Shown: positions 27,624-28,194 of the stretch, one piece after another
Numbering within the stretch: the first letter of the stretch is position 1
Layout: each line of letters begins with the position of its first letter
Source: Candidatus Jorgensenbacteria bacterium
GTDB taxonomy: Bacteria; Patescibacteriota; Minisyncoccia; UBA6257; GWB1-50-10
Direction: 5' to 3'
Length of the DNA: 42,914 nt
Assembly (NCBI GenBank): GCA_011050075.1
Contig: DRGK01000004.1
Coordinates: 1 to 42,914 of the forward strand
Translations under genes and position numbers: made by a program
Notes under the pieces: model-generated
What the model saw: only the letters and a program-made list of their open reading frames with translations
Database searches by the model: none
What the model was told of the DNA's origin: nothing

Positions 27624-27698
27624 TATTGTCTATATTATTATCGACCTTGCTTTTATGTATTATAGCACATTGAGTATTTAGCGTATTTGGTAGATGTA

Positions 27699-27720
27699 CT
27701 CAGTAATCATAATTACTGAG
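27699..27720. repeat. Short perfect inverted repeat (9-bp arms)
   Basis: CTCAGTAAT-cata-ATTACTGAG. Confidence 0.7.
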
Positions 27721-27753
27721 CGATGGTTTTGTGATCAAATTATACTTTGTATT

Positions 27754-27822
27754 CCCTCATCACTTCGCTCCTCGGGATGATTGAAATTCTATGCTTTGCC
27801 TCTGGGCTCAGCATGAATTTCT
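27754..27822. repeat. Intergenic repeat-like element 3' of tRNA-Gln
   Basis: Minus strand reads GAAATTCATGCTGAGCCCAGAGGCAAAGCATAGAATTTCAATCATCCCGAGGAGCGAAGTGATGAGG, with GAAATTC/GAATTTC and ATGCT/AGCAT inverted repeats. Confidence 0.5.
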
Positions 27823-27828
27823 AATCAG

Positions 27829-27899
27829 CTGCCGGACAGGGATTCGAACCCCGATACCATGCTCCAGAGGCATGTGTCCTACCATTAGACGATCCGGCA
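27829..27899 (-). tRNA. tRNA-Gln (anticodon CUG), CCA not encoded
   Basis: TGCCGGA/TCCGGCA acceptor, GTCT/GGAC D-arm, CATGC-CTCTGGA-GCATG anticodon arm, CGGGG-TTCGAAT-CCCTG T-arm, G73. Confidence 0.92.
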
Positions 27900-27905
27900 A
27901 TTATA

Positions 27906-28154
27906 TTAAACGTTTTCAAGGTCTCTAATTATATACTCTTTTTCTTTTCTACATTCTTTAAGTTTTCGCTCGTAAGACCTTGCTTCTTTCTCTGATTTGA
28001 ATTGTTTTGAGAAAACTAATTCAAGTGGTGCGTAAAACTTTGTTGAAATAACAAGTTTTTTATTATGTTCTTCCAACCTTTCAGTAAGTCGGTTGGTACT
28101 ACCAACATAGTACCAACTTTTCTTAGAGCTTTTAATTATATAAACGTACCACAT
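27906..28154 (-). CDS. Small GIY-YIG nuclease domain protein
   Basis: MWYVYIIKSSKKSWYYVGSTNRLTERLEEHNKK...SEKEARSYERKLK; start preferred at 28154. Confidence 0.9.
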   Translation of the reverse strand: MWYVYIIKSSKKSWYYVGSTNRLTERLEEHNKKLVISTKFYAPLELVFSKQFKSEKEARSYERKLKECRKEKEYIIRDLENV

Positions 28155-28156
28155 TT

Positions 28157-28194
28157 TACCATTAGACCTGCCTGCGCAGGCAGGCGATCCGGCA
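28157..28194 (-). repeat. Duplicate of tRNA-Gln nt 1-20, split by an 18-bp perfect palindrome
   Basis: + strand taccattaga-[CCTGCCTGCGCAGGCAGG]-cgatccggca versus taccattagacgatccggca at 27880-27899. Confidence 0.95.

Follow-up and report, generated by a model that had tools for sequence, protein, structure and literature searches.

Organization of the tRNA-Gln(CTG) locus

The window analyzed here, a 42,914-nucleotide stretch of the genome of a Candidatus Jorgensenbacteria bacterium, harbors on its minus strand an intact tRNA-Gln gene with anticodon CTG (27828-27899; ARAGORN). This is the sole tRNA-Gln gene with that anticodon in the genome, the second one being a tRNA-Gln(TTG) on contig C17 (locus L002). 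Read along the minus strand, the locus consists of a tRNA-Gln remnant split by a palindrome, a GIY-YIG endonuclease gene, a 6-nt spacer (27900-27905, minus strand) and the intact tRNA-Gln(CUG), which we interpret as a restored target. The endonuclease gene (27906-28154, minus strand; PF01541) runs from an ATG at 28152-28154 to a stop codon at 27906-27908 and encodes an 82 amino acid protein of the group referred to here as family A. The remnant comprises tRNA nucleotides 11-20 (28157-28166, minus strand; an exact match, which reads as nucleotides 10-20 when extended) and nucleotides 1-10 (28185-28194, minus strand; an exact match), the latter probably marking the 5' end of the ancestral tRNA gene. 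Between them, after tRNA nucleotide 10, lies a perfect 18-nt palindrome, CCTGCCTGCGCAGGCAGG (28167-28184, no strand assigned), hereafter PAL.

Nucleotides 1-20 of the tRNA (27880-27899) and of the remnant are identical at 20 of 20 positions, and the fragment scores above all 200 dinucleotide shuffles, which excludes chance. An earlier note on this DNA, made by reading the sequence, had described an exact duplication of tRNA-Gln nucleotides 1-20 whose copy ends at nucleotide 1, a self-complementary 18-bp insert after nucleotide 10, and a GIY-YIG gene of about 250 bp as the only gene between the copies, ending 6 nt from the tRNA; our coordinates bear out all of these points. It had also remarked that the duplicated end is the 5' one, unlike the 3' duplication made by integrative elements, and a 5' copy is indeed what the window holds. 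Since homologous loci retain tRNA nucleotides 1 to about 25, the length of 20 at the window represents a decayed boundary. PAL occurs once in the window even when up to three mismatches are allowed (0 copies expected) and twice in the 526-kb genome, answering the genome-wide count that the earlier note had called for; in relatives, copies lie near GIY-YIG genes and also within protein genes.

Downstream of the tRNA, a 132-bp trailer module (27696-27827, minus strand) is found only at the two tRNA-Gln genes of the genome, with 82% identity between the copies. Its first part in the window is similar to the left end seen in downstream-type cassettes, for instance at L010, and both in L010 and at the TTG locus the module sits between the tRNA and a GIY-YIG gene of a second family (family B). 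The trailer of the window is therefore probably a relic, lacking a GIY-YIG gene, of a second insertion of this downstream type. At the TTG locus, nucleotides 1-20 of that tRNA are copied directly upstream and split after nucleotide 10 by a different hairpin; this remnant is separated from the tRNA by a 15-nt spacer without an ORF, and a different GIY-YIG gene lies downstream. Nucleotide 7 of each remnant matches its own tRNA, being A at one locus and G at the other. Because of the hairpin-split remnant without an ORF at the TTG locus and the trailer module common to both, the two loci look like mirror images, with the upstream cassette intact at CTG and a probable relic at TTG, and the downstream cassette the reverse.

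It should be noted that the trailer of the CTG tRNA contains a stretch, CCAGAGGC (27790-27812, minus strand), complementary to the anticodon loop GCCTCTGG, which may be due to chance; at the equivalent place of the TTG locus the sequence is changed to CCAAGGGC, an imperfect match to the anticodon loop of that tRNA. The genome's third match to GIY-YIG is fragmentary and short, lying by an apparent tmRNA 3' end, as judged by eye (L003:1501-1590), and at L120 a GIY-YIG gene lies directly downstream of a tmRNA (ARAGORN).

The endonuclease belongs to a clade located upstream of tRNA-Gln

The window protein matches PF01541 over positions 1-74 of 78 (E=1.9e-15) and thus carries a GIY-YIG catalytic domain. 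Its profile also matches the UPF0213 structures 1zg2 and 1ywl and SLX1, and the family alignment (A1) shows an invariant Y5, the Y16-x-G18 motif and further motif residues. GTDB genomes were scanned with A1, yielding loci L126-L189. Family A was defined as the window protein plus its 20 closest relatives, all from Patescibacteria-type genomes, whose hosts include Nealson-, Nomura-, Jorgensen-, Wildermuth-, Kaiser-, Sung- and Levybacteria; L134 and L135 are the Levybacteria, and Parcubacteria-type lineages are among the remaining hosts. Pairwise protein identity within the family is only about 50-70%. In a tree of 83 columns that is mostly unresolved, all 21 proteins form one clade, 20 of them labelled as upstream of tRNA-Gln and one as lying at a contig end.

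The genomic setting is equally uniform, with 20 of the 21 family-A genes located just upstream of a tRNA-Gln gene on the same strand; in the remaining case (L145) the contig ends inside the gene. Among the 20 relatives, 19 genes lie within about 80 bp upstream of the tRNA, and 17 of the 20 loci show the same three parts in the same order as the window. At homologous loci the copies likewise consist of tRNA-Gln sequence, including at L141, where the local tRNA has an unusual D-arm, contrary to the outcome that the earlier note had named as counting against its reading. In a number of family-A loci, the AGGA with which the remnant ends on its D-arm side falls, by eye, where a ribosome-binding site for the GIY-YIG gene would lie.

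A phage origin of the gene was considered and rejected. The window protein had no match in phage records at E<=1e-3, and two weak viral contigs had no tRNA in the stretch covered around the gene.

PAL is a recurrent part of the cassette system

PAL interrupts the broken tRNA-Gln copy after nucleotide 10 at all 21 family-A loci, that is, at the same nucleotide as in the window in 20 of 20 relatives. The 18-mer is exact in 17 of the 21, carries one substitution in L134 and L140 and two in L144, and forms an expanded hairpin in L130; of seven base changes counted by eye in PAL variants, six preserve a G-U pair. Given the low protein identity, an exact 18-mer at a fixed position points to constraint or repeated renewal. 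In L133, L137 and L142, PAL is carried by a more extended copy of the tRNA that lies downstream of the intact one, and L139 has both arrangements.

The association extends beyond family A. PAL is otherwise rare, being present in 15 of 59 related genomes, and in three of them (G018, G029 and G038) the sole copy is the one in the tRNA remnant, which in G018 is a tRNA-Leu remnant accompanied by another GIY-YIG gene. L221 combines a GIY-YIG gene with a 5' remnant bearing an exact PAL in the tRNA-Leu D-arm. An open search for any insert of 12-42 nt at nucleotides 10/11, performed in 244 genomes of the order, returned four matches, all of them PAL or one base off. PAL is thus a recurrent part of the cassette system. 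The earlier note had left the palindrome as either a second insertion or a cassette-end signal; the first of these, an accidental second insertion, is ruled out by the recurrence of the same 18-mer at the same tRNA position across the clade.

As for its function, PAL may mark the cut site, block re-cutting or block recombination between the repeats that would delete the cassette. A further idea, that PAL prevents misfolding by pairing of the remnant with the tRNA 3' strand, found no support: static folding of 15 loci with PAL present, removed or shuffled gave mean acceptor pairing of 0.22, 0.20 and 0.25, respectively, with no difference.

tRNA-Gln loci of related genomes and empty sites

We next considered tRNA-Gln loci taken from the 59 related genomes, counting a piece of tRNA as significant when it beat 200 dinucleotide shuffles on its side. 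A piece of the locus's own tRNA was found within 450 bp at 27 of 84 distinct tRNA-Gln loci, against about 0.8 expected; for other tRNAs the figure was 9 of 53 loci. Upstream pieces at the Gln loci were mostly 5' portions and downstream pieces mostly 3' portions. Some 86 distinct tRNA-Gln loci include about 22 with a GIY-YIG gene within about 500 bp, and this gene almost always shares the strand of the tRNA. Genes matching PF01541 occur in 58 of the 59 genomes, and nearly half of 30 loci around the best GIY-YIG matches adjoin a tRNA or tmRNA, including tRNAs for Ala, Cys, Glu, Lys, Thr and Gln.

The search for empty sites across relatives that the earlier note had proposed revealed syntenic empty and occupied sites in two gene contexts, in comparisons between species rather than between alleles of one species. 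In the first context, the distance from one upstream gene to tRNA-Gln(TTG) is 42-74 nt in L034 and L067 versus 284-354 nt in L055, L127 and L130; a GIY-YIG gene accounts for the extra DNA and, in L127 and L130, has a remnant on its upstream side. In the second, another upstream gene lies 7-42 nt from tRNA-Gln in L019, L086 and L092 versus 314 nt in L126, where the extra DNA consists of a remnant and a GIY-YIG gene. The gene upstream of the window cassette, a DedA-like membrane protein by reading, was found in no other genome of the family, and fmt plus one further gene link the window only loosely, with rearrangement, to L010, L022 and L087. With its synteny anchors absent or rearranged, the window itself has no clean empty-site partner.

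Other tRNA fragments were seen as well. At L017, L018, L030, L039, L049, L070 and L122, an inverted T-arm piece (of the GGATTCGAAC type) lies 3' of the intact tRNA, followed by hairpins and then by a sense 3' tRNA end; at L122 it amounts, by eye, to a nearly whole inverted pseudo-tRNA-Glu. In addition, L094 (G000:C3:37606-37627) is an orphan 22-nt copy of the tRNA-Gln 3' end (nucleotides 51-72) with no tRNA gene called nearby.

Outer tRNA copies and an extended acceptor stem

Pairing between leader and trailer beyond the acceptor stem divides 106 distinct tRNA-Gln loci into two groups, with 0-2 pairs in 92 loci, 6-15 pairs in 14 and 3-5 pairs in none. By reading, the 14 paired loci (L133, L137, L082, L055, L027, L023, L139, L058, L028, L071, L047, L040, L015 and L013) are those where an outer copy of the tRNA extends on the downstream side of the intact one. 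The consensus is a 14-pair extension of the acceptor stem, TTTGTGnnCAnnGC-[tRNA]-GCnnTGnACGGAAA. This helix covaries, with 42 compensatory cells, a value reached in 0 of 500 shuffles and lost when the alignment was slid; the loci were chosen by a minimum of six contiguous pairs, so that the inner six are inflated, while the outer eight pairs lie beyond this cut-off and hold 28 of the 42 changes. Rfam identified only tRNA at the extended-stem loci L042, L055, L058, L071 and L082.

At L027/L080 and L082, a complete tRNA-Gln is nested in a second, split tRNA-Gln. The outer halves of L027 and L082 match the inner tRNA of the same genome, though the two genomes differ from each other, which reflects either concerted evolution or recent events. 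Mosaic copies were found elsewhere: the inner and outer tRNAs of L133 differ in the acceptor and T-arm, and the outer copy of L139 combines TGGGAG at its 5' end with CCCGCA at its 3' end, both being tRNAs too short for trees. Such mosaics are expected if foreign tRNA sequence came with the cassette; at the window, remnant and tRNA are identical, and a foreign origin of the carried part is not evident there.

GIY-YIG genes adjoin other tRNAs in other phyla

More distant GIY-YIG proteins are encoded next to tRNA-Ser, Tyr, Glu, Leu, Val, Gly, Arg and Met genes, in Bacteroidota, Ignavibacteriota, Balneolota, Omnitrophota, Armatimonadota, Chloroflexota, Fidelibacterota and other Patescibacteria; clades located at tRNAs other than Gln span at least six phyla. 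A fragment of the neighboring tRNA on the far side of the gene was detected at p<0.05 for 45 of 57 tRNA-adjacent GIY-YIG genes (30 of the 37 located upstream of the tRNA, 15 of the 20 located downstream), leaving 7 of 37 upstream and 5 of 20 downstream loci without a significant fragment. With the exception of L137, upstream genes are accompanied by 5' fragments and, with the exception of L154, downstream genes by 3' fragments, as would be predicted for an insertion that interrupts the tRNA and itself provides the lost portion. On the tree, genes with a common target and side group together: the labels change 34 times, compared with 56.6 times when shuffled, and none of 200 shuffles gave so low a number.

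Among Balneolaceae, a GIY-YIG gene is present at 4 of 30 tRNA-Ser(GCT) loci, the others having no GIY-YIG match, and some of the gene-less loci retain the left-end hairpin. In Fodinibius salsisoli (L167, L241), the GIY-YIG gene lies at tRNA-Ser, with a 3' remnant at L241. Downstream-type cassettes at tRNA-Ser and tRNA-Leu (L149, L153, L155, L167, L168 and L170) have similar, partly inverted ends, for example ACTACGCTAAAGCTTCGTC close to the tRNA and GACGAAGCTTTAGCGTAGT ahead of the 3' remnant.

A putative self-restoring cassette and alternative explanations

Taking these observations together, the GIY-YIG gene is most probably a free-standing, intron-less homing-type cassette that invaded the D-arm of tRNA-Gln. 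The anatomy, empty sites, polarity and clade specificity are observed directly, and from them we infer cutting, repair and transfer. The small nuclease would cut an unoccupied tRNA-Gln gene, and repair would copy the cassette in. Behind the nuclease ORF, the cassette would carry a replacement for the displaced part of the tRNA, here its 5' part, so that the old 5' end would stay upstream as a remnant of nucleotides 1 to about 25 and an intact tRNA would lie downstream of the ORF. The cut would fall in the D-arm for family A and in the T-loop for downstream clades, and sister clades would either insert at the T-loop and restore the 3' end or carry a whole tRNA within the covarying extended stem. 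That a GIY-YIG cassette targeting tRNA-Gln restored the tRNA on insertion had been suggested in the earlier note, and the empty sites, the same or a closely similar arrangement in 20 relatives (one truncated by a contig end) and the polarity argue for it. Several points count against this model: the tRNA of an occupied locus still has nucleotides 1-25 unbroken, leaving the whole target available for self-cutting; GIY-YIG proteins are widespread among the relatives, where some small ones may do other jobs; some upstream and downstream loci lack a significant far-side fragment; the empty sites are compared between species; and the tree is mostly unresolved. We consider a broader version rather doubtful, namely that there is a single cross-phylum class of tRNA parasites, each lineage using one tRNA and one side and swapping part or all of the host tRNA for its own copy and then relying on that copy being essential, with PAL at the cut site killing the original tRNA-Gln copy and guarding it from re-cutting, and the extended stem allowing the enclosed tRNA to fold and be matured within the disrupted outer copy.

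Alternatively, the GIY-YIG protein could be a host enzyme co-transcribed with the tRNA and involved in its processing, repair or quality control, the remnant and PAL forming an RNA leader that senses or regulates the tRNA. With few exceptions the genes share the strand of the tRNA and lie no more than tens of base pairs away from it, which would fit such a role, as would the strong conservation of PAL in sequence and position and the G-U pairs kept by most of its variants. However, the sporadic distribution with syntenic empty sites, the dependence of the far-side fragment, 5' or 3', on which side of the tRNA the gene lies, the clade differences in tRNA and side, and the position of the PAL copy downstream of the tRNA rather than in a leader in L133, L137 and L142 make this explanation improbable. 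Still less likely is that the duplications are scars of tRNA-integrating elements of the tyrosine recombinase type, with the GIY-YIG gene as a passenger or later arrival. Such elements restore the tRNA 3' end and carry an integrase; tRNA genes are their classic sites, they too leave a restored tRNA, and downstream-type loci with a 3' remnant resemble small attL/attR pairs. The window, in contrast, has a 5' duplication and a cassette of about 0.3 kb, the loci read contain only a GIY-YIG gene of about 250 bp and no integrase between the copies, and the side of the remnant is predicted by that gene. Finally, PAL-like palindromes are dispersed in some of these genomes, and one could have landed by chance in a local tandem duplication next to a bystander GIY-YIG gene. 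Such a coincidence is exceedingly improbable in view of the three parts and their order shared by most family-A loci, the fixed position of PAL, its exact occurrence in the tRNA-Leu D-arm remnant of L221, and the open search at nucleotides 10/11, in which nothing other than PAL or its one-base variants was returned.

Relation to known systems

The closest counterpart of the cassette is found in fungal mitochondria, where mORFs with a carboxy-terminal duplication have been described in Allomyces atp6 and in Glomus atp6, atp9, cox2 and nad3 (PMC3630166). There, an intron-less endonuclease ORF is accompanied by a duplicate of the gene end, frequently of foreign origin, which makes the gene whole again, and the native end persists past the ORF as a remnant; the Glomus atp9 enzyme is likewise a GIY-YIG protein (PMC3630166). 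The window matches this type in having its endonuclease ORF between a native remnant and the restored tRNA with no intron, and relatives provide the empty sites, compared between species. mORFs differ in that they occupy mitochondrial protein genes and restore the 3' end, whereas the cassettes described here occupy bacterial tRNA genes and involve 5' or 3' ends or whole tRNAs. The fixed palindrome in the broken copy is a further feature that sets these cassettes apart from fungal mORFs.

A second parallel is SegB of phages T4 and T6, a free-standing GIY-YIG homing endonuclease that cuts within tRNA genes (PMC13096335; PMC2988022) and, as here, is encoded beside them; its motif RAWTSGAAC matches the T-loop on the opposite strand (PMC13096335). 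Unlike the present system, SegB is a phage enzyme, and remnants and replacement tRNA halves do not appear in these two papers. In CPR bacteria, rRNA genes are rich in group I introns (PMC8172020, PMC10714607). Group I introns with homing endonucleases also place an endonuclease gene inside an RNA gene, but splicing restores their RNA, whereas here the tRNA is restored at the DNA level with no intron RNA. At gathering thresholds, Rfam returned tRNA and nothing else for the window locus and for 13 loci like it; a group I intron or other known RNA family was rejected, there being no catalytic intron RNA in the 14 loci.

We found no description of tRNA-restoring GIY-YIG cassettes in bacteria in the literature, our coverage of which was short on subscription papers and preprints. 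The comparative data support the view that the cassette in the window is a well-preserved representative of a clade of self-restoring GIY-YIG cassettes that invade tRNA-Gln, within a wider bacterial tRNA pattern. Self-restoring tRNA cassettes would be a widespread, apparently undescribed way to parasitize essential genes. Being essential, short and conserved, tRNA genes would suit a selfish nuclease ideally, provided that the break can be mended with no intron involved; the comparative record points to the use of such a solution in many bacterial phyla, by nuclease clades specialized by tRNA and end. If true, this would account for many functionally uncharacterized small GIY-YIG proteins and for the broken copies found beside tRNA genes in Patescibacteria. 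The family also offers natural, isoacceptor-specific candidate nucleases, and at least one carrier, Fodinibius salsisoli (L167, tRNA-Ser), being a named strain and not a metagenome bin, may allow the cassette idea to be tested in culture.

PAL itself is a dispersed palindromic repeat in some Patescibacteria genomes, with 11 copies each in G019 and G022, and it apparently lies in frame in protein genes, reading LPAQAG (L004:1501-1518; L225, L230, L232, L236 and L239). It may thereby resemble palindromic elements of the Rickettsia type, which are repeats inserted in frame in genes. PAL differs from these in occupying one fixed tRNA position in family A and, in some genomes, occurring nowhere else.
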